This document shows, one piece after another, positions 6,701 to 45,100 of a DNA stretch of 64,000 nucleotides (its first letter is position 1; each line of letters starts with the position of its first letter). The DNA lies in assembly GCA_026874595.1 (NCBI GenBank), contig CM049313.1, positions 68,318,659 through 68,382,658 of the forward strand, in the 5' to 3' direction. Below the pieces are notes generated by a model, which was not told the DNA's origin, ran no database searches, and was given only the letters and a program-made list of their open reading frames with translations. This DNA comes from Sipunculus nudus (Eukaryota > Annelida > Sipuncula > Golfingiida > Sipunculidae). Both the position numbers and the translations under genes were made by a program.

Positions 6701-9700
6701 ATTTTTAGAAAATTAATGAATCAACAAGCAAAGCCCACATTCTTTCGATGCAGTTAATTTAGATGAGGATTTTGGGTATTTTGCTCGCAATAGCATTCAC
6801 TTAATCTTAAAAAAATCATGCAGTGTCAATTCATTTGGTCTATTACGATGAGCGCGGTGAACTGTTTTGATAACTATTCTTACAGGCCTCTAATAATTAA
6901 TGGGGAACATTAAATGTTAGATTCTCAAATGAATGTTAGATTCTCAAGTGAAATAAGATACGGATCAGTTATTTATCTAATTATCAAAGAATGTATTATA
7001 CTTAAAATAAACGATGATAAACACTGAACGTTTGTTCCCTTTTGTATAAACATCTTTTTTACCTTGGACGGCCTGATCTTTGATGCCTTTTTTTCTGGAC
7101 ATTTCTAAAAACACTGTTGATAATTATTATGTTGATTAATTCATCATTTTCTCCCTTATTGATAAATATAATGTTGATTAATTCATTATTTTCTCCTTTA
7201 TTGAAGTTCCCTATTTGATAACTGAGGCTTCCGGAACAACATTGGTGTACAAGCGGAGCCATTTGTCGATATTCCGTCCAAAGCTGCGGCCTGGCGAGTA
7301 CATGATAGGAATGGTAGCCATGGAGGGCAGCCATGACACTTACACCGGAAGTGAACCTGTTTGGGTGGCCACGGAGCAGCACCTTCCGAACATTATGCGG
7401 CCCGTGACCGAATTCTATCGACTGTACACTGGCCAAGGGCTGACCTCTTTCAATCCTGTGTGCACCGATGGTAAGTTTTCACTAATCCGCATAAGGCTAC
7501 TTTTTTTCTTCACTAAAGTTCGACCTACCTGCGCATTAACCAAACAATGCTCCCGCACGTGGAAATTTCAACTCGGACCTCTTTCAGCTGAGGAATGAAA
7601 GAAGGGACTTTTTGTCTCAAATCAAAATCAGATTTTGTCACAATCCAAAATAAAAGTCTATATATTGCACCTAAGCATGCTAACCAGATGTAAACCTGTT
7701 TCCTTAAAACTTTCATCATAAAAAAAATTCATATGAATTAAATTTTTCTGGAAAATATACAACATACCGGTACTCTTTTTGGCCTTTATCTTTTTCTCTC
7801 CTAACATGTACATTTACCCCATGGTGTATTTAGAAGCCTAGTGCTTTATCGAAAATGATTTAAACATGATCCCTAAACAGCAGAGCCGCTGGTGGTTGGC
7901 ACTTGAGGGTAGGATTCGGGGCAGATTGGCCAAAGTATTTTTTCTTGACAGAAAGTTGGCGTCATGCTCCGCCTTGCATGGACCTTTCAAAGAGAAAGAG
8001 CATAAACTGAATCTTGACAACACTTTGGGATCGCTTGTTTCATTAAGGAAAACCACGTGTTGTATCAACATAAAGCAAACCTTAAATTAAAATAGGTGAT
8101 ACCATTCTTTGAACATGCTGATTTTTTTGTAGATGTGAGTTCAAGTGACTGTTAGAGAATGAAAGGCCAGAAAGTTAAAGTTAGAAAATAGAGTAATCTA
8201 TGGAAAAGGTATATATTCATTTGCTTAGGTGATGAATAATTACATAGCCAAATAAAAAAGACCTGAAAAACACAGGACACTATCACGCACATTATTGCAT
8301 AACGCCTGGTACCCAACTTCCAGATTTTACATGAAAACGTTACATGAAAATGTTCTCTCAGAATAACTTTCTTTAGCATGCATGCTTGCTTTAGTATGTA
8401 AACTACGTTTACCGAGCACACTATATAGTGTAGTCCTTTTTTTCATTTTGTATTATGTAATGTTTGCTGTTACAGGTGTCTCTTTTATTGTGCGCTGTGT
8501 ACATTCTTATTCGTGTTGGGCTCAAGCCCTGGGCGTTGCTATGCTACAGCGCTCGGTTTAATCCATACTGGTTGAACTCTCGCGGATTGTAAGCGATCGC
8601 TGTCGTGCTAGTCTGGATTGTTCAAGTGTTCATGTGCACGTGTATTGTTCTTTCGATTGTTCGTGAAATAGAAGTTTCTTGAATTTTCGGATGAAAAGTT
8701 ATCAAAAGGGGCTGTGATTTAGAGCCGGGGGGAAGGAGAGAGAAATGTTACAGCGAACACAGAAGATTGTTAGTCAGTTTACGGACCTTTCCGATAACTG
8801 CAGCAGTTATAGATTTTTTTTTAAAATTTGTTGAAATTATAGAAATTTGTAACGGATTTTTATATAGTCTTCAGTTTGCCTTAAGGATCACTGCTAGGAT
8901 TTCACTTTTGGATTACAGCAGATTGATTTTGTGATTGAATTGTACAATTATTTTTATTCTTCATAACCAAATTTATGCTCGTCACGACTACGTGATCTGT
9001 TGATATAAGGTTCCGTAACATTTGCAATATTCTCTCATCTGATTAACAGAATATATTCTGTATACGCAGGGTATATTCAGGGTGAAATTAAGAATTGAGC
9101 TAATTGTGTGTTCTTTATTCTAAGTGTACATCGTTTCATTATATAACTTAAAACTTAAGTCAGTACTCTGTCATAGTTCCATTTATCATTATTTTAAAAT
9201 ATAAATATCATTGAAAAATAATTAATGCAGATATAAAGTAATTTATCGACTTATTTAGGAAACATACCAGATTAACAAACACAGATCAAAGCCAATTACA
9301 TGATGTATAGGTCTATACCTGACGATACGAGTGATCGGCAAAATTTAATTCTTCACTAATGGGTATAACAATGTAAGTTTAACCTGTGACTCGAACAAAA
9401 CGTTACATTTTGAACTGCAAAATTCAAGACAAATGACCAAAAAAAATAAAGGTATGGTTCTGAGGCATTTTTGTTCAGAAACCAGTGCGGGCGGGCATGC
9501 GGGCGGCGGGCGTTTTTTTTTATAATAACTTTTTTTGTAGGTTTCAATAAAAATGTCTTATGATCAGGGAAAAACATGATATTACCATGTTTTTAGCTCA
9601 GCTGACTGAAAGTCAACTGAGCTATAGCGATCACCCTTTGTCCGTCGTCCATCTGTCCGTCCGTTAACCAGGCACAAATCGTTATCACTAGACCTGGAAT

Positions 9701-10460
9701 CTTCTCACTTGACATCTTTGGAGGTCCATAAAAAATCTTTTTGTAAAGCTGTTAAATACGGTGGCTCGTATAGGACATGCACAAAATTATTTTTTATCTC
9801 GTTCCCACGCGATAGTATCTCGTTCCCACGCGATAATTATCTCGTTCCCACGCGATAATATCTCGTTCCCACGCGTTAGTATCTCGTTCCCACGAGATAG
9901 TATCTCGTTCCCACGCGATAATTATCTCGTTCCCACGCGATAATTATTTCGTTCCCACGCGTTAGTATCGCGTGGCCACGCGTTAGCATGCTATGCTAGC
10001 GCTAGCTTAAGCCCTCATTTGGACAAGAATGTCTGTGGTCTGTTTTATATCGAGCGTCTATGTAGCTTAAATTGTTTGTATGTATTTCATTGCATGTGCG
10101 TTTGCGCGGAATGCTTTGAGGTAAATTTCAGCAGTTTTCATTGCGCTGATTCAACATTTCATTGCGCTGGTTCAAATAGCCCATTTTTATTTGTTCAAGG
10201 AAAACTGTATTGAGTTTGTTTTACGGTAAGGGTTATATAAACCCTTCTGTACCAAACATATGAATTAAATTAAAACACTTGTTTGTATTTTACCTTCTAA
10301 GAAAATCAAAGTCAATTATGTAATCATAGGCGGCGAAAGCGGCGGGGGCCCGCGGGGGCCGAGCCCCCCCCCCCCCCCCAACATATTGATGGGTATAGAA
10401 ACATCCACTCTATTATAATTGGGTATTTGCACTCTCACATTTGTATAAATATATATATAT

Positions 10461-10554
<94 letters not shown>

Positions 10555-11392
10555 ACGCCTGTATTACGGTCACCATCGGGATGAAAGTGGCCTTAATACA
10601 GGAGTGGCCGTTATGCAGGACTTGACCAGGATAGGGGGGGGGGGGGGGGTTAAAATGTAACACAAACGGTTGTATATCAATAATATTAGTACAAATGTTG
10701 AGAAGCTCTTTGTATCCATCAAAGCATACTAATAGAACGGAAGTATCAGCAGAAATATGTGAGCATTCACAGAATACACTCTTAACATCTGATTAAAGAT
10801 GGTTCATGGAGGAGTAAATTGTGCGATGTTTGCCGCACTGTTTTCGTTTGATGTACGTGTTCACAAGGACATTAAAGAAAATTTAAAGATCCACAGTTTG
10901 CCACCGGGACCTGCTAGTTGTCATTCGTTAATTAAATGACAAACACCCTGATTAAGATCAGGCTGATTCACAAACATATACGCAGGTGGGAACACATGCC
11001 TTATGATTGTGCATACTAATGAGGCTGAGTGGGGTAGTACGATGCTGGCTATGTGTCAAACAACTCAGTCACGGTCGAGTGGTTACCTTTATCCAGGCGC
11101 TCATTAACAGACAGGAATATGTGAGAGTGGACACTTGTGTAATGATATTGAGGTCAGAAGTGGCCGCTCGATTTGTTTAGCCCATGTCACGGAGTCACTG
11201 CCCCTTACCGTAATTTAGGCTTTTCCCGGCCCGCGGGACCGAGAAACCTGGACGTAATACGGAACAGAGGAGTGACCTTAATTGACAACAAAATGATTAT
11301 GAAATAAAATGGGCGAAAATTCGAAACCGGAAAATCTGACCGTTATAGAGGTATTGACCGTTATTGAGGCGTGGCCGTAAGCAGGCGTTTTA

Positions 11393-11436
<44 letters not shown>

Positions 11437-11870
11437 TCTTCTGCTTAGGCGCTTCGCGCCCTCTGTACTTGGAGTACCATATATACAGGGCTGCAGACTC
11501 CGGGATTTGAGGTGAAAAAAAATACTGCGAAGTTGATATTCTGCATGTGTGAAAATGAATCCATTGCCAGACAAATAACAAATAATCTCCCACCAAAAGG
11601 AGATACTGTTTTACTAAATAAGCATTGACCAATAAAATGCATCAGAATGCAGTAATATCCATACAGTTTTTCAACATTTTTCAAACCTTGGGAGGGTGAG
11701 ACCCCCTCCCACACCCTCCCCCGTCGGGGATTACCCCCATCGGCCCTTATTTATAAATATATATATATACATATAAATAAATAATACTATATATATAATA
11801 TATAAATATGTTGATTTAATATATATAATATATATAATATATATACTAATATATATGTACTAATATATAT

Positions 11871-11909
<39 letters not shown>

Positions 11910-14883
11910 TATATATATATATATATATGTATATACTATTGGGTATACTATTGGCCCTCCAAATGAAAATTTGGCTTCGCCGCCAATGGTAATACATATT
12001 ATAAACATTTATTATGACAAATATTTTACCCGAACTAGCCACCCCCCCCCCCCCCTTTACCCGCTCACACATTCTCTAAACAAACATGGCAAACGAGTGT
12101 AGTACGAGTCCCCGTTGCATCATTTCAGGTCTCAGCATATTAAGCCCGCTCTAAATTCATGCAAATAATTGACCATAGTCTTCATTCAGTGTATAGAAAC
12201 ATGCCTTAAGGATTTAAGATGTAGGTTTTACTGTATTGTCTATCTACATTTATCTCGTTCCCACGCGATAATTATCGCGTGGCCACGAGATACTCACGCG
12301 TGGGAACGAGATAATTATCGCGTGGCCACGAGATACTAACGGGTGGGAACGAGATAATTATCGCGTGGCCACGAGATACTAACGCGTGGGAACGAGATAA
12401 TTATCGCGTGGCCACGAGATACTAACGCGTGGGAACGAGATACTAACTCGTGGGAACGAGATAAAAATAATTTTGTGCATGTCCTATACGAGCCACCGTA
12501 GTTATAAGGTCCCTGTTACCCATATTCTTTGAGCTATGGGGCGCCGTAGTAATAGAAAATTTGATACAAAAGCGCAAGTATCTGAACAACTAATGCATTG
12601 ATCACCATGTTTTTTGCATGGATATTGATCATGGAGTGTTTCATCAGTTTCTGCAGACTGGTGGCACCACCTGTATTTTTTTATTTTTTTACGAATTTTT
12701 CTCTATGTTTGAGACTTTTAAAATGCAGTCATCTGTTAACAAGGCACAAATCGTAAGGACTGGACTTAGAATCTTTTTTCTGTACATGCAGAGAGGCCCA
12801 TGAAAATTCTCCATTGAACACTAAAATTAGGTCTCTCTTACCCAAAACATATCAGAGCTATGGGACTTCGAAGTACCCCCCCCCCCCTCAGAATAATGGA
12901 AAATTTGATACAAAAGCTCAAGTATCTGAACAACTAATGCATTGATCACCATGTTTTTTTTTGCACGGATATGGATCATGGAGTGTTTCATCAGTATCTG
13001 CAGCTTGGTGGTGCCACTTGTATTTTTTTTTCTCGATTTTTTACGAATTTTTTTCTGTATTTATGAGACCCTAAAAGATGTGGTCATCTATTAACAGGGC
13101 ACAAATCTTAACGACTGGACTTAGAATCTTCTCTCTTGACATGCAGGGAGGCCCATGAATAGTTTTTTTAGAAACCTGAAATTAGGTCTCTGTTACCCTT
13201 CACCTCTTGAGCAACGGGGCTCCGAAGTATCCCCCAGATTAATGGAAAATGTGATTCAAATGCGCAAGTGTCTGAACAACATTGCACTGATCACGATGCT
13301 TCTGTACATGAATATTGATCATGGGATGTTTCATCAGTTTCTGCAGTCTGGTGGCGAAACCTGGATTTTTTTTTTTCAAATTTTAATGCATTTTTTTCTC
13401 TATTTTTTTTACCCTTAAAGATGCAGTCATCTGTTAACAGGTAAGAATCGTAACCATTCAACCTGGATTCTTCTAATTTAAAATGCAGAGCCGTCCATTG
13501 AAAATCTCCTTCGAATTTTGAAATTAGGTCTCTGTTATCCATATCCTTTGAGCCACAAGGCTTGTAAGTACCCTTCAGTATATTTAAACATTTTAAATAA
13601 AACCTCCAGTTTCTGAACAACTAATTAATTCTTCACCATTTTTCTTTGCATTCACATTTATCATGGAGTTATTTATCAGGTCTCTGTTACCCATATCCTC
13701 TGAGCTATGCTTAAGTTGAATGGGGATACCACCTACCAAATTTGCATTGATAAAATTCATTTTGAGAATGTTTCCCTAGTCAGCTGAGCGTCATGACCCC
13801 TGGGTAACTTGTTTATCTAAATAGGTAAAAGCAATGCATAACAAAGTACAACTTATCAAAATTTTATTATTAAAAGTTCGTGAAAGAGGAAAATAAAATT
13901 AATATATTTGATGCGGGGGAGGGGGGGGGGGGGGTTGTTGTTAAAATTGACGCGGGCGATGTCTGAAAACCATACAATTTATATATTTGGCCTGCACCAT
14001 GCTTTCTAAATATCAGCTTGCCCCTGGATACTACGGCAGTAACTGGGTTAATCGTTCTCAGCGTTCGATGTTCAACAAAGGCTGATGATGAAAAAAAGAA
14101 TTCGCTCTGCATCTTTCTTTGAAGGTTCTAGACAGCACCAAATTCTGTATGTTGGTAGTAAAGGTCGTTGGTGCTGTTGCTCTGTTGGTACATCTGAATT
14201 CTCGTCCTGTATCCAGTTAGAAGGTTAAGAGCTATGCTTGATCGGTCTATTGGATAGTTTTGCGCTTGGTTTTAGGTGGCTTATACAAAATTACAGCTTT
14301 GGCTATCTCACCTGTATTATCTCATAAAAACAATCAAAATATAACTCAAAAACCTCTTATCTATCCACTTTCACATCGCTTAGGGGACCGTCTGTGTTCG
14401 GTTTCGACCGTGTCAACAGTACAGAAGTGACCCAGTTTCCCATTCCTTCGCTCACTATTCCCACAAGTGTGGTGACACAGAACGCCTCAACAACGCACCT
14501 GAAGTTTAAAAGGAATCAAGCTGGTGCATTGGTGTAACAAATTGGTATAAACAGGACATACGTACTCATACATTGATAATATAATCATTTTTTTAGAATA
14601 TAAGGCCCTGAGCTCGGTTGTCGTTGATGGAGAAGATGTGGAAACACCGGACGAGGAAATCGTGGCCAAGTTCCGGTGTGTGAGAAGGGAATACATAACG
14701 GACGCTGATTACGGACCATCGATTAAGATGGCGGAGGATACGTACGCAACATGTGATATCATCAAGACAGAGTTTCCAGAATACCAAGTCAATTCCAACT
14801 TCCTCCGGCTGCAGGAATACCCAACACGGTCAGATGCTACTGTTTTCTCGAAGAGAAACGTGCAAATTGTCAACCGTAATTGA
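751..14883 (+). CDS. Gene 1: probable secreted protein with three Vps62/DUF946-like repeats (5' partial, 7 exons)
   Basis: The exons 751-777, 1511-1624, 2273-2404, 5106-5402, 6627-6656, 7207-7470 and 14597-14883 join in one frame. They give 382 visible residues and end at TGA 14881-14883. Every intron is GT-AG and phase 1, so all internal exons are symmetric. The first visible residues (LASGILSAS) look like the end of a signal peptide, and no membrane segment follows. Three internal repeats are visible: FYHPICPEG-FKSVGDVAM (about 83-100), IFRPKLRPGEYMIGMVAM (221-238) and SFNPVCTDEYKALSSVVV (280-297). Repeats 1 and 3 are followed by FRC[IV]R, with the same 32-residue spacing from the Pro to the Cys. 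The PICPEG-F-S-GDVA pattern resembles the Vps62 (DUF946) family, whose biochemical role is poorly known. That assignment is from memory; the internal repeats and splice frame are seen directly. The function is unknown. The initiator exon is not found and is probably left of the window. Confidence 0.72.
812..838. repeat. (TA)n microsatellite
   Basis: Short (TA)n tract in the intron after the signal-peptide exon of gene 1. Confidence 0.8.
1350..1470. mobile_element. 121-bp palindromic MITE with TA target duplication
   Basis: The ends are inverted copies starting CAGTGAAACCTG and running through GAACAC (about 25 bp with one gap). They are flanked by TA at 1348-1349 and 1471-1472. The TA duplication and size fit a Tc1/mariner-type MITE. 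It lies in an intron of gene 1. Confidence 0.8.
1511..1624 (+). CDS. Gene 1 exon, 38 codons
   Basis: The acceptor TTTTATCAG precedes 1511 and the donor GTAAGT follows 1624. The exon reads VLRLLPVRHGLEIYKGEF and ends ...LLGMSID plus the first base of a Gly codon. The open frame runs on into the intron to 1752, but the consensus donor and phase mark the true end. Confidence 0.7.
1725..1940. repeat. Dispersed repeat family C, copy 1
   Basis: It shares an ordered series of blocks with 52615-52810: 'tctgacttg', a poly-C stretch, 'caacctgtgtgc', 'gagattat/c', 'ctttagtt' and 'ccctttaa'. The class is unknown, and there are no clear ends. Confidence 0.55.
2273..2404 (+). CDS. Gene 1 exon, 44 codons, carries the first PICPEG motif
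   Basis: The acceptor is AATTTTAG and the donor GTAAGC. It has no ATG-started frame of its own on the + strand. In phase 1 it reads DLFLKTTYIAEEPYTSG and later NVQFYHPICPEG, where the final Gly codon is split by the intron. Joined to 5106 it gives PICPEG-FKSVGDVA, the clearest family-like motif in the gene. The matching start of repeat 3 (SFNPVCTDEYKAL) supports the junction. Confidence 0.72.
3385..3575 (+). mobile_element. tRNA-derived SINE-like fragment
   Basis: A box-B-like sequence GGGTTCGATTCC at 3411-3422 is followed by TTTTCTCCGGGTCCTCCGGT and TTTCCTCCACC. This core type is common in invertebrate SINEs. It ends near 'gttgtacaacccatgtaaaa', and a similar tail occurs alone at 2987-3006. 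Box A is degraded. It is intronic in gene 1. Confidence 0.5.
5106..5402 (+). CDS. Gene 1 exon, 99 codons, repeat 1 body
   Basis: The acceptor is TTTAACAG and the donor GTAGGT. It encodes FKSVGDVAMTDEMEKEG, then HFRCIRHDLVQKC, then a W-rich and Ser-rich stretch (GTLWTIIPSQYS, SGTYFLASSSSARPSDDD) and ALLSLY. Phase is 1-1. The ATG in the upstream intronic TGCATGCA repeat is not the start. Confidence 0.78.
6627..6656 (+). CDS. Gene 1 exon: 30-nt microexon
   Basis: It lies between a TTTTATTTTACAG acceptor and a GTCAGT donor. In phase 1 it reads E-PFDPSAMPN and leaves a G that completes Val in the next exon. Its 10 codons link repeat 1 to repeat 2. It fits the frame exactly, but it is short enough to be skipped in some transcripts. 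Confidence 0.6.
7117..7205. repeat. 45-bp tandem duplication at a splice acceptor
   Basis: The block TGTTGATTAATTCATCATTT...CTCCC/TTTATTGA occurs twice, and the second copy runs directly into the acceptor of the 7207 exon. The first copy ends TATTGATA and so lacks the AG. Confidence 0.7.
7207..7470 (+). CDS. Gene 1 exon, 88 codons, repeat 2
   Basis: The acceptor is CTTTATTGAAG and the donor GTAAGT. It encodes PYLITEASGTTLVYKRSH, the repeat-2 core IFRPKLRPGEYMIGMVAM, EPVWVATEQHL and the start of repeat 3, LTSFNPVCTD. The Glu codon is split by the intron. The open frame continues to 7598 in the intron, but the donor and the continuity of repeat 3 across the junction mark the end at 7470. Confidence 0.78.
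8468..9020 (+). mobile_element. Solo LTR, 553 bp, with 5-bp target duplication
   Basis: It starts TGTTACAGGTG and ends GGTTCCGTAACA. TTTGC flanks it at 8463-8467 and 9021-9025. It shares its body with the copies at 17057, 21716 and 61397. A conserved 'gaaaagttat..aa.gggg' block is TATATAAAGGGG in copy 2, so it is probably the U3 TATA box. No internal retroelement genes are beside it. The termini and 5-bp duplication fit a Ty3/Gypsy-like solo LTR. Confidence 0.82.
9793..9985. repeat. CpG-rich 21-22 bp minisatellite, left arm
   Basis: About nine copies of TCTCGTTCCCACGCGATAAT/GTA units form the inner part of the left arm of the 9757-12500 element. The repeat-peptide frame at 9761-9943 is an artefact of this array. 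Confidence 0.85.
10449..10550. repeat. (TA)n-(GA)n compound microsatellite
   Basis: A long (TA)n run passes directly into (GA)n and abuts the left end of the element at 10548. A C-run (10367-10379) lies upstream. Confidence 0.9.
10548..11395. mobile_element. 848-bp non-autonomous TIR element nested in the 9757 element
   Basis: The right end reads inward as CAGTAAAACGCCTGCTTACG. The left end GAGTAGAACGCCTGTATTAC matches it closely and continues with CGGTCACC versus CGGCCAC. The right flank is TA, fitting a Tc1/mariner-like element. Internal short direct repeats of 'gaccgttat' type are present. No transposase is seen. Confidence 0.65.
11395..11434. repeat. (TA)n microsatellite
   Basis: A (TA)n tract abuts the right end of the nested TIR element. 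Confidence 0.85.
11755..11935. repeat. Interrupted (TA)n tract
   Basis: About 180 bp of TA-dominated sequence with imperfect units. The minus-strand tyrosine/isoleucine-rich frames here are artefacts. Confidence 0.85.
12250..12465. repeat. CpG-rich 21-22 bp minisatellite, right arm
   Basis: About nine units mix ACGAGATAATTATCGCGTGG and its complement, so the units are themselves near-palindromes. The array mirrors 9793-9985. Confidence 0.85.
14597..14883 (+). CDS. Gene 1 terminal exon, repeat 3 and stop
   Basis: The acceptor TTTTTTTAG is followed by E-YKALSSVVVDGEDVETP, AKFRCVRREYITDADYG, a polar C-terminal region and TGA at 14881-14883. The spacing from the Pro of SFNPVC to the Cys of FRCVR is 32 residues, identical to repeat 1. 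The protein therefore ends with a complete third repeat. Confidence 0.78.
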
Positions 14884-25168: not shown

Positions 25169-26040
25169 AGCTCAGCTGACTGCAAGTCATCTGAGCTATA
25201 GCGATCACTCTTTGTCCGTCGTCCGTCCGGCCGGCCGTCTGTCCGTTAACATGGCACAATCGTAACCGCTAGACTTGGAATCTTCTTACTTTAAATCCAG
25301 AGAGGTCCATGAAAAATCTCCTTGGAAACAAGAAATTAGGTCTCTGTTAACAATATCCTTTGAGCTATGGGGCCCCAAAGTACCCTCCAGAATAGTGAAA
25401 AATTTCATACAAACACTTCAATACTCATTTACTATATCACTGATGGACATGATTTTTTGCATACATATTCATCATGAGATGTTCCATTAGTTCCTGCAGA
25501 CTGGTGGCGCCACCTGTATTTTTCGATTTTTTACACATTTTTTCTCTATTTTTGAGACCTTTAAAAATATGGATATCTGTTAACAGAGCACAAATCGTAA
25601 AGACTGGACCAAGAATCTTCATTCCTAAAAATTTGAGAGACCTATGAAAAGTCTCCTTGGAAACCAAAAATTAGGTCTCTGTTACCCATATCCTTTGAGC
25701 TATGGCACTCCAAAGTATAGCTCAGAGTATTGGAAAATTTGATACAAAAGCTTAAGTATCTTAACAACTCATCCAGAGACCACCATGCTTCTTTGCATGG
25801 ATATTGACCATTAAGTGTTTTTATTTGTTTCTGCAGACTGGTGGAGCCACCTGTATTTTTTTTAAGTTTACGCATTTTTTCTCTATTTTGGAGATATATT
25901 AATACAGACACAATCTCAGCCTGTTGGTTACTCTATTTGATGCTTCAGTTCAATGTTTATATACTACCATTCAGATGATAAAATTTCCTTTTGCAAATCT
26001 CTTCCAAGTCAGCTGAGCGTCATGACCTATGGGTCACTTG
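25169..26040 (+). mobile_element. Family B Helitron-like element, copy B2 (872 bp)
   Basis: The head hairpin AGCTCAGCTGACT-gca-AGTCATCTGAGCT is at 25169-25197. It is followed by the GTCCGTCGTCCGTCC tract and two tandem units (markers at about 25342 and 25677, a 335-bp step). The 3' end is AGTCAGCTGAGC (26008-26019), then TGACC-TATG-GGTCA and CTTG, running into T5. This is the most compact copy and the best one for defining ends. Confidence 0.8.
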
Positions 26041-30100: not shown

Positions 30101-33100
30101 AAGAAAGATACATGATACGATTGATATTCGTGTCTGAATGGCCAGAAAAAAAACGAAATGCGAATACTTTTCCTGACCTTCCATTATTAAGGTCACATCG
30201 AATGATTGAAAAGTTAAATCTTTACCTACCAAGATTATCTGGCTTCACTTGTTTTCATATTTTATATTAAAAGTTCATGTTCAAATAGAAGGTGAAATGA
30301 TTTTTAAAGTCACCATCGGCAGACTTGCAATAGCATAACACGCACTTACATCAACATACATATATATTCAAATTTAATAATATTATTTTATACATTAGAG
30401 TACCCGGTATGCAAAGACCTGCAGCGCTAGTTTTGTATCCAGATCAACTATCAAATACATGTATTGTAAACTCTATCCGTCTTCTCAAGTAAAGAAGAAA
30501 AAGATTTCGCTCGAGAGTCTAGGATTCCGCCTTAGGTGTGTTTACCGGGGTCGCGGATTCATGTGTGCGGTAAGCAGTATGCGTACGCTGGTTATTTTAT
30601 CATAAACCGTTAATCTGACGCTCGGTAGTCGGTAGGCAAAAGAAAGTTTTTTTGTTTTTTTTCGCGCCAGTTATTTTATTATCAACCATTTACCGTTTTG
30701 AGAAATGCGTTATGAGACACACGGTAAAATGGATTTTTCAGTAGAGAACTGAATCCGCAAACCGCGCGCGGTATAGTGTCCACTGGCTCTAGTAACCATA
30801 TAATTGACCTACAAATGCAGCCGGATCTACTGGGTTTTGACTACATCAGGCCCATATCGCAGGATTTTACCATTTATTTGTATCACATTCTGCATACCGC
30901 GTTCTGTTGGAGTAATTTGGGCCACTATCCGCATACTAATCAGGTTTATCATAAATAGCAATAATATTTCAGAAAGTCAGCACGCATATCTGCCTGGAAA
31001 ATCTACTGTAACGGCTCTTAGTAAATTTTCAAATGACGTATATAAAACTATGGATCAGGGTAAAGTTACTGCTGCTTCTTTTTTCGACCTAACCAAAGGA
31101 TTTGATACCATAAATCATAAAAAATTATTGGAAAAGTTGTTCGTTTTTGGTTTTGATAAGAAAACAGTTGCCTTGTTTCAATCTTACCTCCATGATCGCC
31201 TACAGATCGTAAAATACAATAACAATCTATCCAATGCTGCTGTTGTTAATGTAGGTGTTCCTCAGGGTACGGTTCTCGGCCCAATTCTATTTTTGATATA
31301 TATAAATGATCTTCCAAATGTGCTAAATACTGATGGTATTGTAATGTACGCTGATGATGTCACTGTATATTGCCATGGTAAAAATGCTGTAGAAGCTGAG
31401 ATTAAATTACAGCGAGTAGTAAATCAAGTGACCACCTGGTACGACGAAAACCTGCTTACCCTGAATTATAATAAATCTAATGTTATGCTACTTGGAAATC
31501 TTCATAGAATTGCTGATCACAAACTCAAGATATCAATATTAGATACAACATTACTTTGTTCTAATAAGATTAATCTACTTGGCGTTATAATAGATGCTAA
31601 TTTATCCTGGAAACCACATGTTCACTCTCTATCCAAAAAACTATCTCAAAAGATAGGAGTTCTTTACCGAATCTCAAGCTATCTGTCTATGCAATCTCTT
31701 ATTAAGGTTTATGCAACTATAATTCAGCCTCATATTGACTATGCCCTAAGCATTTGGGGTTGTTCATTATTGTCTACCAATGATACGGTACATAAAATAC
31801 AAAACAGAGCTGCCCGCATTATATCCAAAAACTATGACAGAAATGTTGATTCTATAACCATAGTAAATGAACTGGGTTGGTTGAATATACGTCAACGCTA
31901 TATGTATTCTGTTGCAGTACTTATGTATAAATGTGTTTGTTCAATAGCTCCTGGTTTACAAGAGAATAATTTTCACTTTGTCAATGAAGCTCACAATCAT
32001 CAAACCCGAGCTGCTGTGAGCAATGATTTAGTCGTTCCTAAACCTAGAACAAACTATCTGAAAAAATCTTTACTATATATGGGGCCAAAAATATGGAATA
32101 GTTTATCAAATGAATCCAAGTCAGCCATAACTTGTGCATCTTTTAAGAGACGACTCAAATTGGAAATTTTAGCAACTGTATGTTCTATATGACACATGTT
32201 ATATTTGCATAAATTTGCATTTTATACATGTAGCACTCATTCTTCTATCATTTCATAGATCATACAATAACTGTAAATTAATTTTATACGTATTTAACTG
32301 AATCTAACAATGATCAGGTCCATAAATGCTAGAGATTATTGTAATATTATTGGTTCGTATGCCTCGCATATTTGCATGTATATATATACTGATCTAATGT
32401 GATATTTTAGTTTACTCTTTCTGTCTATAGATGTATATATTGATATACTTTCTTAACTCTCTTAATATGCTTTTATGATTTGAGTCCATATGTTCATGTT
32501 TATATTTTTAGTCATGGTATTATTTTATGTATTGTATTGATAGTTTAGTCATTGTATGTTTTATATGTACTGATACAGGGCACCAAGTAAGACCAGTTTA
32601 ATTTAAACTGATTGGTTTTCCCTGTATAAACATAATGTAAATAAATAAATAAAATAAAATAAAATAAATAAATACAGGACCCGGTTTGTTCAAGAACTAA
32701 AAAATGACAGTGATTTAGGGGTATTCTAATATATTGGTAATACGTATGGGCATACTCGGTCAGGCATATATCTTATGCGAGTTAAATGGAATGATTTCTC
32801 AGGGTTTTATTAAATACAACGATACATATCGTAACAAAGGAAAAAAATTTACCTTTCTGTCTTTCTGTCTTTTTGTCTTTAAACAAGGCTTCTCCTCCTC
32901 TGAAAAGATCAACTGTAACAGAAATTACTTTATGCAAACCGATGTAAAACTGAACAGGTCAACAAGCAAATATACATAAATAAAGATTAAAATAAGACCA
33001 TCTTCCAGCTTTTCGGCGGAGGAAACCTTGCTCTGGTATATTGCCCGTATTTATACAGATCTCTCCGTTAATTGCAAATTCAAAGTAAATGAGGCCAAAC

Positions 33101-36100
33101 AGATAAAAATTTACTCTGCGGATCCGGAACTGCCGTTTCCCATTAAGTTTTATTTTTGCAAAAAAAAAAATAATAATAATAATAATGCTGCTTTTTCGTC
33201 CTTGCTTCGATTCCTTGATAGATTCATCAAAGGCATGAACGAAGTAACTTCGTTTTGACTTTATGGTCCAGTTTTTCGAATTTTTTTGGCAAGCATGCAA
33301 AAATCCCAAGTTTTGTGCCTAAACCAGTAAATAAATAAAAAAACGCTCGCTCTCGTCATTATATTTTTGTTTGTTCTCAGAGTTCGTAGAATAAGTATGT
33401 TTTAGTGTGGACTGTGTGGTAACCTTTTTTTCAGCGAGGAAGCCGGGACTGGTGGGACACCTCCTACCATGCGTTACTCATTGGCATTCAAAGTAGGAAC
33501 GATGACTGTCTATATACCCGTCTTTCTGGTGGGTGTCGTGGGTGAGTGTCGAATTATGTTTCTAACAAAATGCAAAATCAGCAAGCACCACTCTTTCCAG
33601 CAACTAACAGAACGTTTCCATTAATGCTCATATCGATCATATAATATTGTTCAATAAAAAATATGAAGACATTGATTAGATTCTGACATGGTTTAGTGAT
33701 GGATTTTGCACATCATTGGCATGGTCAGTCAATCATATCAGGGATTTGACAACATCGGGAGACGCGGAGGTACACGTAAGGCATCGGTATCATCTTCTAA
33801 AAAAATAAGAGATTATTAGGTTGAATACAGAATTATTATTTCTATTTGATCTTCCCTGGAACCATGGGAACCTAACCAGCTGTGGTCGAGTCCGTAACAA
33901 TGTTTTTAATTGATATTCGATGGAATATGTCCCTGGGATAAAACATTTGAAGCCTCTTCTCTTACAAGCTCTATGTCAATATTAACAACGAGAGAGTTAG
34001 AGGCGCCAGCTAACTTTCTATCGTCTAACTAATCTACAAGTAACATGCATACGGAGCCCGGGAGACGGCATGGTTAAAATATTTATTAATTCGTGCGCAC
34101 GAATTACTAATCCGTGCGCACGTATTACTTATCCGTGCGAACGAATAACAGGGTGTGAAAAATATATTTCCAAGGTGGAAAAAATATTTGTTAAATTTAT
34201 TAATTTATGCGCACGAATTACTAATCCGTGCGCACGAATTACTAGGTGTGAAAAATATGTTTGCAAGGTGGAAAAAATATTCATTAATTCGTGCGCACAA
34301 ATGAGTAATTCGTGCGCGAATTACTACTCTGTACGCACGAATTACTAATCTGTGCGCACGAATTACTAATCCGTGCGCACGAATTACTCATCCGTACGCA
34401 CGAATTACTGATCCGTGCGCATGGTTTAGATATTAATTAAATAATTTGTGGCTTGGTAATGGATAATTCTAAATCCTTTAACACAAATACACAGCTGTAG
34501 ATGATTAGTTTTAGATATTTAAGAAATTCCTTCCTCGGTTACGTACATCAAGCTGTTGAATTACGTTTTATTTTCCATACTAGCGTCTTATTTATTCTTG
34601 CGTTGTTCAAATAGGTCCTGGTAGAAAGTACTACAATAGTTCCTCCGCGGAACAAAAATGTCAAATTCCTATGGAATAATTAAAAAAAATATTGGAAATA
34701 TTCCCACATTTGGCTTAGTTTCCCCCAAATGGCTAATTCCTATGGGTTTTATTTGAAAATAAGGGAAATATTCCCACATTTGGCATAGTTTCCCAAATAT
34801 GTCTTATTCCCATGGAATTATTTGAAAATATGGAAAATATTTCATCATTTGGCACAGTTTTCAAAAGTTAACATCTAAAACGGGCATTTCTGAGGCGTGG
34901 CCGCAAATGATTTGAGTGGAAGAATATCCAACATTTATTTTAGTGGCGAATATAAATACTGACAGGTTTATGACACAGTATATATATAATACTTATTTCC
35001 AGGTAACCTGTTAGTGATCGCGACAAACCGGTCTTCGCACATGCGGACAGTGACCAACATGTTCATCACTCAACTGGCCGTGGCTGACCTCTGTATCCTC
35101 ATCTTCTGTCTGCCCTTCACCATCATGAGCACGTACATCTTCGAAGTGAGTTATCATTTATTACTACCACGAAATCTTGTGCATCTGCAATGGATTATGC
35201 AGGGCTCTTAGTTTCTTGCCGAAAGTAGGGTCCAGTCAAAAAAACATTTAGTGAAACGTTCAGTGAAAAAAAATGAGTTCCGTAGCACAACAGGGCCTCT
35301 GTCGTGGCCACACTGGAGATCCTTTAGTTTTTGTTAAAGCTACAATAAGCCTTCAGACAATGACAATTTAAATATATGTTAAGAGATTTTAATGTAAATA
35401 CCTAACTGGACATTTCATAATTGTATAAGAGTTGGTCATGCATATTTTTTAGTTAATTTTATTATTGGTGCATGTTTAATGACAGGTAACCTCACGATGT
35501 TCTATAAAAGCTAAACTTATTTACATAACTGACATAGTACCTGTTGTTGCAAAATTCACGTTATTCCTAATATATGCATGACACTGCAGTAGCACCGTCG
35601 CGATAAATGTAAATTGTCTCAGGATTAAAGGAACATATGGGAATAAATCCTCTTAGGACACACATGGCATCTTTCCGAACAGTTCACATTAAAAAAGGGA
35701 GCATTTAAAAGCTTGGTCACAGTGGCGCCAATTATGGGGTAGGTTTTAGAATACCTTACGTCTACTTTACCAAACTTTCTTATTGACTATTTTCGCTTAC
35801 TTCAACACTGTAAATCACAGGTTCCTGGCTGTATTTCATTATATTGAGGACTCGCGTACAATGACCTTTCTGTGATTTGGGAGCCTTTGCTATGTATCGA
35901 TATTCTCGACTTGGAATTAAAGCATGGCAAGCACGAGTAGATGGAAATAGCATGTTAACCTTATATCAAGTGTCTGAGAGGTATGAGAGAACTCCAGCAC
36001 GCTTTTCAGTTTACGGAGATTTATATCCAGTTACCTTGTTAACAGTCTCATGAAAAGCATACATGGGATCAATGGGAATACACAGTCCGTGTTACGGGTT

Positions 36101-39100
36101 TTAAAGTGAGCAAACCGTCGGCCGTCTTATTATAACCATACCGAACAGACGAGTTTGTAAATCATTAAACCAGACAAATATTTGCTGCCGCGACTTAAAC
36201 AACCAATGTTTTCCGTGGTCATTTACTTTCCTTTATAGTGAAATGTGACTTACGCTCTGCATCCCGATTTCTACAGTTGGGCACATGATATTGAATTGTG
36301 GCACTTTGTCCCTGTTAGTTTCGTGGTAATTTGTTTTTTTCTTATAATACCGAGGGCTGCAGCACTTAGATTATTTTAAGAAATATTATTGTAAAGATAT
36401 TATAATCCAGTTTATCTTTGCTATTGGTTTTCGATGAAATTCAGTCTTAAAAGTTTTTCTTTAAATCTATCGGCTTTGTTGAAGCAGCCTGTAGGCTAGC
36501 ACTGACGGGGCTTTAGTGTTTAAGTTTACTACTAAATTTCTAAATTTAAACGTGATTCCATGCATCTATAGAGTTAAACTGTCACATTATGCAATGGCAT
36601 TGACGAGTCCCGTAAAGAAGTTATATAATTTGTCTCCAGTTGGTTAGTACTTGTCCAAACTATTGGGATACATTGAAAGCAAGTTTGATGGCTCTCTATC
36701 AGCGGCAGCAATTTTAGTCTTCTCAGCTTAATCGACTGGGCCATGCAGGCCCAACTGGTAAATAGATCATGTTTAGGTAATATAAAAATGTAAAACGCTC
36801 AGCGGCATCTGCCATACAAACAGTAATCTGTCATTTACAGCTGCTTGTCACAAGTAATTTTCCCGATTTCGCGGATACCTTTAGGTTTGTTCTCCTAGCT
36901 TTTTCACATAAGACATAGCTTTTTTCAAAGTTAAATCTCATGTCCTAACGAATGCTTGGCTATGAGTAAAAGGCATTCACGGAAATAGTATAGGAGAAGT
37001 CAGTCGATATGTAATCAGCGCAGAAAGAACCATCTCAAGGTCTGAGGCCACATTAATTTATCAACTGAGAGCAGTCTATTCTATTTACACTACTATCACA
37101 TATGTCCCGTTCCCTCTATAAAACCAACTTAGACACCAGGATTCTCTCTACAGCAAACACGGAACAAACACTAAGGTAGACAAGGCCTCCACTAACATCG
37201 AGTTGATTTTTATAGAAAAATAATGCTATGGAAAAGAGAGAAATTCCAATATTTCTTATAGATAATGTTTCTACATATTGGCTTAATTATCCGCAAACGT
37301 TTAGATTCTGTTCGTGTTATCATTGTTTTCATATAATTAGTTCGTTTTCACCGTTTAAAAATGACATATTAGTGTGTTTTTACCATAACAGTATTCGCAG
37401 ATCAGTATTGAGCGAGGGAATTTTGGCACAGTTACTCAATAAAGTATTCAGTAACGGCCTTTGTTACTGTTGACAGAAAGAAACATTTAAGATCAACATT
37501 TTCTAAGTATGGCATGTGCAGATAATTTGTCAATAAGAGAATTCTGGACTGATTTCAAACCAAGAGGATTACGCGGTGTGCGCAATCACAGTTTTCTACC
37601 ACAGCTATAATTCTTCATTGATACATTTATTCATTTGACACTTGATCTACCTGCAGCTATTGCAAGATGCAAGAATATTTATAAATGATTAATAAAATCA
37701 TGACAATGTTCGGTACATTTACTGTGTGGAAATGTCTTGGTATCAGTAAGTCACCGAGTAGACATTCAACTTTACCAGGACCGACTTTTTATCAAATGGT
37801 CTTATCAAGCCTACGTGAATATTTCCTGCTACACGACCTTAGGCGTGACACGGTAGCAGCTTCAACAATAACAGAATAAGATATCTCAATATGTAACAGA
37901 ACTTTATTTATAGTTCAGCTGACTGTAAGTCATCTGAGCTATAGTGATCACTCTTTGTCCGTCGTCCGTCTGTCCGTCTTGCCGTCCGTCCGTCTATCCG
38001 TCTATCCGTCCGTCTGTCCGTTAACCGGGCACAAATCGTAACCGCTGGACCTAGAATCTTATAACTTAAAATTCTGTGAGGTCCATGAAAAATCTCCTTG
38101 GAAACTAGAAATTAGGTCTCTGTTACCCATATCCTTTGAGCTATGGGGCCCCAAAGTACCCCCCAAACTAGTCAAAAATTTCATACAAAAACTTCAATAT
38201 CTCAATAACTACAACACTGATGGTCATGATTTTTGGCATACATATTGATCATGAGATGTTCCATCAGTTCCTGCAGACTGGTGGCGCCTACTGTATTTTT
38301 CGATTTTTTACTAAATGTTTTCTCTATTTTTGAGACCTTTAAAAAATGTGAATATCTGTTAACAAGGCACAAATCGTAAAGAGTGGACATAGAATCTTTA
38401 TTCTTGACACACTGAGAGACCTATGTAAAGTCTCCATGGATACCAGAAATTAGTTCTCTCTTACCCGTATCCTTCGAGCTATTGGGCCCCAGAGTACCCC
38501 CCCCCCCCCCAGAATAGTAAAAAAAAAAATCATACAAAAACTTCAGTATCTCATTAACTTCATCACTGATGGTTATGATTTTTGACATACACATTGATCA
38601 TGAGATGTTTCATCAGTTTCTGCAGACTGGTGGCACCACCTGTATTTGTTCGGGTTTCTTTTACGAATTGTTTTCTCTATTTTTGAGACCTTAAAAGATG
38701 TGGTTATCTGTCAACAGGGTACAAATCGTAACAACTGGACCTAGAATCTTCATTCTTGTCATGCGAGGAGGCCCATGAAAAGAGTCTGTGGAAACCTGAA
38801 ATTAGGTCTCTGTTTCCAATATCCTTCATGCTATAGGACTCCGAGTATCCCTCAGAATAATGGAAAATTTGATACAAAAGCTGAAGTATCTGAACAACTA
38901 ATCCAGAGATCACCATGATTCTTTGCATGGATTTTGACCATTAAGTGTTTTTATTAGTTTCTGCAGACTGGTGGAGCCACCTATATTTATTTTAAAGTTT
39001 ACGCATTTTTTCTCTATTTTTGAGATATGTACTAGTAAATACAGACACAATCTTCGCCTGTGGGTTAATCTGTTTGATTCCCCAGTTGAATGGGTATATA

Positions 39101-42100
39101 CTACCATTCAGATTATAAAATTTCCTTTTGCGAATCTTATCCCAGTCAGCTGAGCGTCATGACCGATGGGTCACTTGTTTTTACAATAAGATCAATTAAA
39201 CGCAACTCAAAAACACTCCCGTATTAGAGTCAACTTTAATGGAACTGGCATTTATCAGTTGTTGCTACCATCTGGCGGCTGATTACATAACTAGTTCATT
39301 TTGGTCCCCGATTCATTCGACTCGAGAACCCACATATGGACAAAAGGCCATACCTGATTTTTACATGCAATTCCTTTGTCGAAGTTGTCTAATACATGTG
39401 TCAGATTAAGTATAATATTATGCCAAACTGTAACCGCACTGGCTAAAAGAAAAAAAATTTGTTAACTCAAACAACCTAACTATCGATGAAAAATTACGTG
39501 CAAATTGATCGATACTAAAAAAAATAAAATGCTGTTCATTAAAGGGGTGTGTTCCGAATTCTGACGTCTGTTAATTGAAGATATTCCCTTGGAACTGAGG
39601 CCATTTGATTCCACCTAACAGAGGCTATTCATATTTGTTTATATTCACGTTTTTATTACATGTGGGCAGCTAGCCAAGATAGTAATAATGATAATAATAA
39701 TAATAATAATAGTATATAGTATTTATATAGCGCCAATTCTCCGATGATCGGACTCACAGCGGAACTCATACAGACGCACCTACCCACATATATTTTCATG
39801 GAAATCTACCCCTGTGCCTGACCCAAGATAAAAAATAAGGGATATAAACCACCAAAAGCTTGCCGACAGAGATACGTATTTAAGTTAGTTTTAAATGATA
39901 CATGAGTTGGGAGATTTTTTATTTGTTATGGGAAGTTAATTCCAAACTTTTGGGGCTATGAAACGGAAGGAACGTTCACCGACTTTCATATTACACTTTG
40001 GTACTTTAAAAATATTTCCGCCAGCCGAGCGCAGCGTACGCAAAGATCGATAGGTTATTATTTTTTAGACAAATACGATGGAAGCGAGTCATTAAAATAG
40101 CGGCAATCAAAAACAGCAATTTTGTATTGTATGCGGTACTTGACGGGAAGCCAATTGAGCTGTTTGAGCAGCGGCGTGACGTGGTCGGTCTTACGCTTCT
40201 TAAGAATGAGACGCACAGCATTCTTCTGGACCATCTGTAGCCGCGAGACTTGCTGTGCCGGTAACCCAGCAAGAACTAAATTACAGTTATCCAGGCGAGT
40301 TAATACTGTAGCGCATATGAGCCGACAGTACGCATTATTGGAGAGGAAATGCCGGATGGAAACTATATGGGGGAGCTCGAGAAAGGCCGCACGACATATA
40401 CTACTAATATGATCATGCATTAAAAGATTACGATCAATCTTAACATTTAGATACTTCACTGAATTTTGAAAAGGAACAGTGCAGCCCCAAATGCTTATGG
40501 ACTCACTGTCAATTTTCCTTAGAAGGGGCTTAGATCCGACAGGCATAATTTCAGTATTATCAGTATTCAATTTAAGTTTGTTGCTGGTCATCCATGATAA
40601 TCATCCTCAATACAAGCCTCTTTGCTGAACTGTACAGGGCAGAACTCATCTGGTTGACTACTTATTGATAGTTCAATGTCATCAGCTTACTTATGAAAAG
40701 AACAATTATGTGCAGATATTATACGAGATAAGGGTTGTGCATAAAAAGTGTAATATATAGGTCCTAACACGGATTCCAGGGGAACCCCGTACAACAATGT
40801 ACATGCGTCTGATTTTCTACCGTCGACCAAAACAGCTTTGGAAAGATTGGCGAGGTATGAAGTAAATCATGAGAGCGCGGTGTCGTGTTTACCAAAGGTA
40901 ATTTCTGGTCTTATAAGCAAAATGGAATGATCAATCGTGTCAAATGCTGCACTGAGGTCCAACAATGTTAGGACAGAAACGCGTCTCTCATCTGCCGCCT
41001 TCAGCAGACCATTCATGACCATGACACTCAGTACGGCGGTCTCTATATGCTGTGGTTCTTTCTATTCGCGGACGGGTGGGTTTCATACAAGCTATTTTCA
41101 TAAAGATAATCCAAACATATTGTAACAAATTGCCTTACAACATCCGGAATTACCCAACCATCCAGCCTAGGTTACAAGTTGTTCATGTTAGTAAACATTG
41201 TGGACATACCTTGTTTACTAACACCTTTTAAATAATAGATCTTTGCATCCGTCGTAAAGGCGTTATAAGACTTTTTCGAAATAGAATATACCTACAGTCT
41301 ATAAATATTTATATTTATTTATGTTCCCTAGCACTAACGTCAATTCTATAGAAAAGTTCAGTGTATTGCTGGCTATAAAATAAGCTGTTGGTATTTGACT
41401 TTTTTGTTGTACCCTGACACTTTTTATCATGCGCCTTTTTTTATCAATTACATGCACTCAGTGCATGTTCGCCATATTTAGCTGAATATTATTATTTTCC
41501 AGCGTTGGGTTTTCGGGAGTGTTTGGTGCCGAATGGTTTTATTCCTACAGCCGTGTTCACAGTATTTATCCATCTTTACAATGACAGCTATGAGCATTGA
41601 AAGGTAAGTAACTAAATCAGTAATTAATGGGCCTTTCCCATCACACTTTTGCAACTTGTCGGCGTCGACTGGCACTGGCCGTTCATTACGATATATCGGC
41701 AAATGTACTTTTTGATAATATGATATTTTTTTTTTTCAAATGGGTATAGTTGCATTATACGGGGTTCATGACTGTGGGAAAATACGAGGGTTCTAGCTTA
41801 ATAGACACTTGTACATGCATCTGTTTTTTTGTTTAAATCAATGCCGAATAATATTGTCTTTGTTATATCCTTGCTCTTAACCTTATTATCATTATTATTA
41901 TTTTTAACACTGTTCTGTACAATGACACAATATGTATCTCCAAAACATGTCAATATATGAAACATGCATGCGTACATGAAACATGTAAACATGTGATCAT
42001 AATATATACACATATCTACATATACATATATGTGTACATACACACATACACATACATACATATAACCTTTATATATATATATATATATATATATAAATAT

Positions 42101-45100
42101 ACATGTTTATTTCCATCTTCGCCAATTTCATTAGGAAAGGATGACCATTTACTCTCGAAACAACATGTCATGAGCTTAATTAACTTAGAATGATTGTTTT
42201 CTTATATTTTTTTAATTCAAAATATAAACAAACGTATTATAATTTTTAAACATATAGCCAAGAGATAATAAAAACTGTATTAAGATTTACATATATAATA
42301 TTTTATATGGAGATGTTTTTTAAATTTACTGTAACTGCAATTATGTAGATTTTTTTATATATAATCTTATCAGATAAGTAATAAAAATACTTCAGTTCGC
42401 TTCCAGTGTGAAGTTCTAAAAGACAGCATCTGACCAATAAGTTACCACTAATCATCTTGAGTAGGGGTTCAATGTATCTTCTACTTTAAAGAAAATCTAA
42501 CATCTAGATCGAAATTATTATGCAATTATGTATTAATTTAAAGAATTTGAGAAATAACCATTTTTTTCTATGTGTTTCTAATTTACATTTATTTTTTTCT
42601 ATTGTCTGTTCAATAGAATGTATTTCACTAATTAATAATTTAAAGCCTTGAATATCAGGTTTCTTTTTGTGACATTTATTTATATAAATATACCTTTTTG
42701 TGATCAATGTCAACACATTAACCCATCGGTGCTCACTGCATCCCAGCAGTGTTTCTGCCTTATCAAGCAGAAGTGTTTCATGTAAATCTATGTTGATAAT
42801 TCTTTAAATATCTCTATATAATAATTTTACAAATGGACATTCCCAGATTAGATGTTTTAAAATTTCTATTTCATTTTTACAAAAAGTACAGTTTTTGCAA
42901 TCTACAATGTTTAAGCGGTGAAGGAAATGACTAAGGTTGAGTTTTCTGTGTAAAATATTAAACTGAAACATTCTTAATTTCATTTATATTGTTGTGTTAT
43001 ATATATTGCAGAATCCAGCATTCACCTTTTCTTCTGTCCACATGTTCATATCCTCATTCCATTTTTTTAATAATTTTATTGAGTGAAACTACTGATACAC
43101 TAACTAATCTATTTTATATACATTTTGTTCCTCTTTTAATATACCTTAATGCCTCACAATCTTCAATAATACAATTTGCAGATAATTTATTACTATTAGC
43201 CGCTACTATTATAAAATTCCATTTTTAGGTAAAGCTTGCAGTAAGCTGGCGTAATTAAGACTGTCAATTTTTACTTTAAATTTATGACAAAATTCTTGGC
43301 AATTCATAAATTCCATTTTAATGTCTTTAACGATCAACAGATCTGAAATTAATTTTGCCACAGCTTACTGTGAAAAATCGTTTTTTTTACCTATTTATAT
43401 GTGGGAGTAATACCAAATGCATTGAGATAATATATCATTAACATAACATGGGTTACTATGGTTCAATAAGCACCAATTAATGTCTCATTACGTCTTCTCA
43501 AAAATAAAATTTATATTTTATAATATCCTTAACGTCTCTGTGTGAAGTGTTACAATGAAAGGTAAATTCCTTAAGTTTCTTAGTTTCCATAAGAGCTCTT
43601 TAAAGGATATGGTTGGAATTTTCTCCATTAATTTCTTTATTAATGCAAGTTTTAATGCAGATTTTTTAAAAACTAGATGGACCATATTTAGGCCTCCTTT
43701 TTCTATTGGTGCAATTTAAACTTCTCTTTTTATTATATATTTCGTATTTTTCCCCAAATAAATTTGGATAGACGTGATCCATTTTTGTTTCAAAATATTA
43801 GGAGGTGTAGGTAGTACTGAACAATTGTATATTAATTTTGGAAGAATGCACGTTTTTATTATTGTAATTCTGCCTAGCGGTGTTAGCCTTTTGTCCTTCC
43901 ATAAGTTAATAATATTGGATATTTTTGTCAACTTGTCTTTAAAGTTTATATCAACCATATTGTCCAATGATGGGCTTACTGTAACTCCAAGCAATAAAAT
44001 TTCTTTGTCGGTGTATTTTACTCCAAAATCCTCTTTTTTTGTCGATCTTTATTTTTTACATTTTAAAGGCATAACTACAGTTTTGTTCCTATTCATTTTT
44101 AGTCCTGATGTTTTATTAAAATCTTCAAATATACACAATGTTTCTTTAATGCTGGTACAATCCTTAATTAGCAATGTTGTGTCATCGGTATACTATAAAA
44201 CTTTTATTTCATTATTAAAAAGTTTTCTACCTCGAATGTCTTGATCCGCTCTTATAGCACTGGCAAGTATTTCTATACAAAGCACAACAAGATAAGAGGA
44301 AAGTGGGCAGCCTTGCCTGATCCCCCTTGACATAGAGAAAAAAGGTGATGTCCAACTATTATTTATCGCACAGCTTTTTGTTGCTTGCCGGAAATCTTCG
44401 ATTTCCGCAAGCATGTTGGTCAGTTCCGTATGTCCATTTGTCTTTTTGTCTTTTTGTCTTTTTGTTGCTTGCCGGAAATCTTCGATTTCGGCAAGTATAT
44501 TCGTCAGTTGCGTATGTCCCTTTGTCTGTCTGTTTGTTTTTTGCTTGCCGGAAATCTTCGATTTTCGCAAGCTGGTTGGTCAGTCGCGGATGTCTGTCTG
44601 TTTGTCTGTTTGTCTGTCATCTCTCTACAGGTCTCAATTTTGCACCAATCACTTTCAAACTTACACACTTTATAGATAATCAAAAATGCAAGAAGCCTAT
44701 TGTTTTTGGGCAATATAGGTCAAAGGTCAAGGTCAAGGTCATCAAAAGTATACAAAACGGGTTTTTCTTCATATCTTTGTTACTATTAGAGGTATCTTCT
44801 TCAAACATAGCTCATTTTAAACGTCATTCCCAGGCCTTTCTTCTGGTGTGTAGCTCTTTCAAATTTGCCGTAACCATGGTTACGCATTTGGGGGAAAAAG
44901 TCATGATATTCTGAAATAAGGGGTCTTATTTTTCTAACTTTGTCAGTTTTAAAGCTAGAGAGGTCTAGTTTTTTGCATCAGGTAGCATTTAACAAGTACT
45001 GCAAGATTTACTTAAAAGTTTTGCGATATCTCCTATAATATCTCGTCAAACGAGATATTTCGAGATTTCAGTAATCTTGTCCTGGAGGTCACGGTTTTGC

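Follow-up and report, generated by a model that had tools for sequence, protein, structure and literature searches.

Two unrelated families of Helentron-type repeats in Sipunculus nudus and a candidate autonomous partner for one of them

Terminal anatomy of the two families

The window analysed here is a stretch of 64,000 nucleotides from the 1.43-Gb assembly of Sipunculus nudus (G000:C8:68318659-68382658), and positions given without a contig refer to it. It contains three copies of a repeat family termed B (9595-13811, 25169-26040 and 37912-39177) and one composite copy of a second family termed A (44383-47735), all on the plus strand. Both families are built to the same plan: a T run, a 5' arm folded into a head hairpin, an inverted copy of this arm near the 3' end, a small hairpin, CTTG and a T. 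The loop formed when the 5' arm folds back measures three nucleotides in every A and B head, and the ends enclose a GTCC/GTCT-type microsatellite together with tandem repeats of about 335-355 bp in family B and of 331 and 148 bp in family A.

The B copy at 25169-26040 is preceded by TTTTT and opens with the head hairpin (25169-25197), which consists of the 5' ATIR and an imperfect inverted copy of it separated by the loop GCA. The body (25198-26006) holds first a GTCC-rich microsatellite and then central repeats of about 335 bp; it is followed by the 3' ATIR (26007-26018; AGTCAGCTGAGC), which matches 12 nt of the head arm exactly in reverse complement, and by the tail hairpin with its terminal CTTG (26023-26040), next to which lies TTTT. 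The copy at 37912-39177 is also full-length. The copy that the initial annotation placed at 9595 does possess a head and a tail and extends to 13811, but it is split by another transposon, and its TGACC tail hairpin is altered by one base. The interrupting 2.74-kb TIR element (9759-12498) has inverted ends that start with CGGTGGCTCGTATAGGACATGCACAAAATT, TA flanks and arrays of palindromic 21-bp repeats inside each end (9795-9986 and 12250-12464); a further palindromic 21-bp array of similar style (TTACTAATCCGTGCGCACGAA) lies at 34083-34450. A T run precedes two of the three B heads in the window, TTTATA standing before the copy at 37912, and TT precedes the A heads. The tail hairpins are followed by CTTG and then T, with CTAG instead in the internal A tail.

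The ends that the initial annotation assigned to family A were located, but the copy actually comprises two tails, an internal one at 46330 and a final one at 47718, and three heads crowded into 190 bp. The first head hairpin (44383-44412) carries one bulged base, and its 30 nt are identical with the head of the autonomous element described below; the others occupy 44467-44496 and 44543-44572. Central repeats with a period of 331 (45176-46108) precede the internal tail (46314-46347; ATIR, TGACC hairpin and TCTAG), directly after which the microsatellite of a second, headless unit begins; this unit has central repeats with a period of 148/295 (46734-47492) and ends in the final tail (47702-47735; ATIR ATTTCCGGCAAGC, TGACC hairpin and TCTTG). 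The composite copy may be read as the product of head-to-tail tandem growth, like a tail-head junction at the locus termed d below and runs of A tails spaced about 2 kb apart. Two such one-strand runs were observed at G000:C1:64761022-64777638 and C1:105182948-105207135, where 8 and 10 A tails, respectively, follow each other mostly at distances of 2-3 kb; they form head-to-tail arrays and are possible precursors of satellites. An older copy is visible on the minus strand of the window, where stretches between 16819 and 18536 show 74-78% complementarity to the central repeats of A.

Families A and B are unrelated in sequence, as the initial annotation had claimed: two B copies tested against A gave no BLAST similarity at an E-value of 0.001. 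Their terminal structures are real and form a pattern far beyond chance, as confirmed by motif counts, folding and blind scans. Matches to the head patterns lie at 9595, 25169 and 37912 (B) and at 44383, 44467 and 44543 (A), compared to a mean of 0.00 in shuffled sequences, and the six heads folded as DNA have z-scores of -3.2 to -6.3. TGACC-N3-GGTCA occurs twice in the window (46330 and 47718; 0.02 expected) and TGACC-N4-GGTCA also twice (26023 and 39160; 0.03 expected); taken alone, these four tail hairpins are weak folds (z -1.4 to -2.6). A first blind scan, requiring a head hairpin, an exact distal arm and a subsequent hairpin, recovered two B copies, with their ends at 26036 and 39173, and family A from its first two heads to 47730, in addition to palindromic 21-bp arrays (within 9832-12474 and 34095-34324) and one minus-strand match inside a B copy; 19 of 20 Markov controls gave no match and one gave two. 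A second blind scan with different settings found 25167, 44382 and 44467 plus array matches and missed the B copy at 37912, with no match in seven of eight controls and one in the other. The interrupted copy at 9595 was recovered by neither scan. The common terminal plan that the initial annotation had recognised, consisting of head, inverted distal arm and TGACC hairpin, is thereby borne out, the first scan having retrieved two B copies as well as A.

By eye, no RepHel was seen among the nine open reading frames of at least 130 aa in the window (three of the nine scanned with Pfam), and, with 150 of 195 candidates scored, none of the genome's 143 matches to the Helitron_like_N domain falls inside it. 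The earlier assignment of both families to non-autonomous elements of the Helitron2/Helentron type with a partner elsewhere is supported. Two open frames of other kinds were noted on the plus strand: 30804-32192 (462 codons) contains a reverse transcriptase domain (RVT_1) and is presumably a non-LTR-type fragment, and 50447-51178 matches the later part of 7tm_1, the rhodopsin-class receptor domain.

Genome-wide copies, insertion sites and orientation

Counted as exact patterns only, the B head has 25,390 matches in the genome and the A head 2,791, while the 36-mer of the B tail and the 33-mer of the A tail occur 3,283 and 927 times, respectively; reversed-pattern controls gave 0 matches genome-wide. 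Sixty loci were chosen as the best matches to the B head and tail of the window, a sample whose conservation counts are biased towards window-like copies. They yielded 14 head-to-tail B pairs at 12 distinct places, with lengths of 326-1591 bp. At least two Ts stand before 40 of the 42 oriented B heads in this sample, and all 35 B tails found with a fuzzy pattern continue with CTTG and T, 34 of them with TT.

The fixed-length target duplications that, according to the initial annotation, would speak against its reading are absent from 12 of 12 distinct full-length B copies. Beyond the overlap at the T run, where the abutting repeats vary in length between 2 and 5 nt, the flanks of these copies display no target duplication; as far as flanks can tell, family B uses a T-rich or TT target without duplicating it. 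These observations bear on whether A and B are instead MITEs that carry subterminal inverted repeats and that a DDE transposase moves by cut and paste. Such elements are also short and non-coding with inverted repeats at both ends, and in flanking sequence a possible 2-bp TT duplication looks the same as an insertion between Ts. Against this stand the internal position of the 3' arm with a hairpin after it, the A ends that bound a Rep-coding element and the tail-head tandem junction at locus d, and we consider a MITE origin very unlikely.

Canonical Helitron1 elements (TC...CTRR, AT target) are an even less probable identity. They share the 3' hairpin near the end, and one internal A tail does end in CTAG, but B starts with AGCTC after a T run, all 35 examined B tails end in CTTG-T, the elements possess ATIRs and a hairpin at the 5' end, and a relative of the family A partner has an endonuclease domain. 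The 5' TC, 3' CTRR and A/T insertion of Helitron1 do not describe these copies. What is found is a terminal 5' ATIR with a subterminal 3' ATIR, a 5' hairpin built from the 5' ATIR, its stem imperfect in both A and B, and a palindrome or hairpin downstream of the 3' ATIR, as in Helentron and HINE elements.

The orientation of B copies on C1 looks locally coherent (G000:C1:0.19-29.1 Mb for tails and 0.10-2.48 Mb for heads), an unproven pattern that was conceived on the same lists on which it was tested. The C1 tails form 35 orientation runs where 50.8 are expected (P 0.001; P 0.004-0.045 after thinning to 50-200 kb) and the heads 11 where 27.9 are expected; among 117 pooled B insertions, 123 of 193 pairs at 20-400 kb are concordant (permutation P 0.0004). 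Tails thinned to 300 kb (P 0.57) and heads thinned to 100 kb (P 0.12) gave no signal; neither did a separately listed set of B heads (57 runs vs 51 expected, P 0.90; 10 of 22 pairs concordant at 100-400 kb) nor family A (P 0.30). The nearest B copy within 200 kb had the same orientation for 7 of 12 A copies and for 8 of 12 LINE copies; the LINE reverse-transcriptase motif (974 copies) is too sparse as an orientation control. No two of 33 B flanks compared are alike (best 26/50), three resembling the B repeat, one a weak match. The coherence looks as if single-strand insertion followed replication forks, by analogy with the bacterial IS200/IS605 elements, for which such insertion is described (PMC5371812).

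A candidate autonomous partner for family A

Seven of the Helitron_like_N matches sit in open frames of more than 2,200 codons. Two loci that code for an OTU-Rep protein, c on C7 and d on C11, share 98-99% identity in the stretches fetched, and on one side this identity ends at a minus-strand A head, past which locus d has an A tail joined directly to the head and locus c has other DNA. On the opposite side, 25.5 kb off, an A tail oriented like the head is present in locus c; here the last 708 bp are 99.86% identical between c and d, which part just after CTTGTT. The element in locus c, bounded by A head and A tail, measures 25,546 bp; its flanks, searched over 2,984 and 5,465 bp, are free of A and B matches at an E-value of 1e-4. 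Its head is identical to that of the A copy in the window (30/30), the first difference following after 61 nt; the tail regions agree at 172 of 181 positions, and the element covers 2077 of the 3358 nt of the window copy.

The open frame of element c runs opposite to its ends, and its protein has DUF6570, OTU and Helitron_like_N domains. At locus a (C8) a related protein combines OTU, Rep, PIF1 helicase and an Exo_endo_phos endonuclease; judged by its domains this gene content is the Helentron signature, with Rep, PIF1 helicase and C-terminal endonuclease as in autonomous Helentrons. Element c was read without about 2.4 kb that probably include the helicase, and only OTU and Rep were read directly; since the last ~254 nt of its frame match the end of the locus a endonuclease with 83% DNA identity, c can be presumed from locus a to encode helicase and endonuclease as well. 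The listed open frame has 1882 codons in c and 2235 in d, so that c itself may be damaged.

The A sequences beside RepHel genes might alternatively be independent HINE insertions, the true partner being another element. Family A is indeed common (2,791 head matches). At loci a and b (C3), A-type repeats lie beside the same kind of gene with nearly all matches co-oriented, but the stretch fetched on the far side contains no A tail as second end, and a blind scan of loci a-d returned no pair of ends. The c/d identity, however, breaks at an A head and, 25.5 kb away, at an A tail, both in the same orientation, and the outer flanks of c are free of A sequence, which makes independent insertion improbable. 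The Rep-coding element of locus c is hence the probable partner of family A, found with matching ends in the same genome.

For family A this delivers the RepHel element with matching ends that the initial annotation had expected elsewhere in the genome, whereas no partner came to light for family B, no B end being present in the fetched parts of loci a-d. One B head (C3:32111954) has a Rep match (C3:32120125) at a distance of 8 kb, but the locus reads as an ordinary B repeat, and about 0.4 such neighbours are expected, by rough estimate, among the 80 places listed.

Head hairpins, mode of transposition and known systems

The head hairpins and their 3-nt loops exist as the initial annotation described them, but the stems of 13-14 bp are imperfect: in B a C.T mismatch leaves 12 of the 13 positions paired, and in A a single base is bulged, the second arm being one base short. 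Position 8 of the B stem is mismatched in all 42 oriented heads of the 60-locus sample, with no perfect stem among them, and the first 100 of the 25,390 listed heads have T in 97, A in two, C in one and the perfectly pairing G in none. The 12-nt 3' ATIR of family B, by contrast, is exactly complementary in 30 of 35 tails. The genome contains 2,791 A heads that fit the one-base-short pattern and 0 perfect ones, heads with other changes falling outside this count; the absence is weak evidence, as A would need an inserted base to become perfect. The predicted duplex energies of head stem and arm-to-arm pairing are -12.0 vs -16.6 kcal/mol for B and -13.8 vs -17.4 kcal/mol for A, an advantage of the arm-to-arm duplex of 4.6 and 3.6 kcal/mol, respectively.

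Imperfect heads combined with a perfect arm-to-arm match favour an idea put forward in the Helitron2 account of Bao and Jurka (2013; PMC3627910), in which the 5' hairpin is lost when the 5' and 3' ATIRs pair, an event that determines where rolling-circle replication ends. One could speculate further that the head is deliberately kept imperfect so that the peeled-off 3' arm displaces it, a one-way switch telling Rep that the full element has been replicated; we regard this as tentative and rather doubtful, and the fixed defect may reflect plain inheritance rather than selection. If the switch existed, DINE-1 of Drosophila would obey the same rule. The inverted repeat beside its 13-bp 5' subTIR is described as partial and/or interrupted (Yang and Barbash 2008; PMC2374699), and in oyster Cg_HINE the IR measures 7-12 bp and the adjacent subTIR 11-12 bp (PMC7492417), both pointing in the same direction as the A and B defects; against the pattern, subTIRs with one mismatch are reported to predominate in most Cg_HINE elements (PMC7492417). 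The portions of the literature on Helitron hairpins and termination that we consulted do not state the head defect as a switch.

Taken together, A and B are very probably non-autonomous, Helentron-type rolling-circle transposons of the Helitron2 group, HINEs with central tandem repeats, of which A would be mobilised by the 25.5-kb Helentron of the same genome with its RepHel frame opposite to its ends. A Rep-helicase-endonuclease protein supplied from elsewhere would nick the 5' end of the element at its T-rich site and peel off one strand until the 3' terminal signal stops it, and the single strand would then be inserted at a TT site, leaving the target unduplicated. The 5' arm could pair either with its neighbour, as head hairpin, or with the 3' arm; given the head defect and the perfect 5'/3' arm duplex, the swap would run downhill and mark the end of replication, as Bao and Jurka proposed. 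Family B would presumably also have a partner, and the families may still be active.

Some invertebrate genomes contain HINE-type repeats in very large numbers, and their drivers stayed unresolved in the oyster work; our search, which covered the paper literature, found no publication on a mollusc HINE partner. A 25.5-kb reverse-coded Helentron and a repeat-bearing HINE family with matching ends offer a concrete pair for transposition assays, in which the mismatched head versus the perfect ATIR provides a simple test of own-end recognition, and tandem-repeat blocks are seen to travel inside both ends of an autonomous-type element. Three things are new to our knowledge: both families of this genome, although they may already be catalogued, the element that partners family A, and the contrast between head and ATIR put forward as an idea open to testing.

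The terminal plan itself is already known: Helitron2 and HINE/DINE-1/Cg_HINE are defined by it in the literature. The initial annotation was mistaken in calling the head hairpin not a standard description, as Bao and Jurka (2013) define Helitron2 by it (PMC3627910), and it is therefore to be expected that two unrelated families follow one plan. Like A and B, Helitron2 as presented there has a 5' hairpin formed from the 5' ATIR, a 3' ATIR just upstream of the 3' hairpin and a T-rich target (PMC3627910); unlike the partner's relative at locus a, it is without an endonuclease domain according to the comparison in Thomas 2014 (PMC4067079). The Helentron and HINE/DINE-1 pairs treated in the latter correspond to the present case in their Rep/Hel/endonuclease partner, OTU, common termini and TT target, and differ in sequence and from the 25.5-kb element here, which carries HINE-type repeats inside both ends (PMC4067079). 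A reversed frame is known from some Helitron2/Helentron elements (PMC3627910, PMC4067079), among them one D. ananassae element with the frame reversed relative to its ends (PMC4067079). An inverted repeat that lies next to the 5' subTIR and is complementary to it is part of the descriptions by Yang and Barbash (2008; PMC2374699) and Vojvoda Zeljko (2020; PMC7492417). The latter's Cg_HINEs of Crassostrea gigas resemble A and B in the subTIR and complementary IR in the left flank, the GTCY/GTCC microsatellite, the central tandem repeats, the right subTIR followed by a palindrome and the T-rich target without TSD (PMC7492417). They differ in that none of the 10 autonomous elements reported in the oyster was relatable to Cg_HINEs (PMC7492417), whereas family A is tied by its ends to a Rep-coding element.
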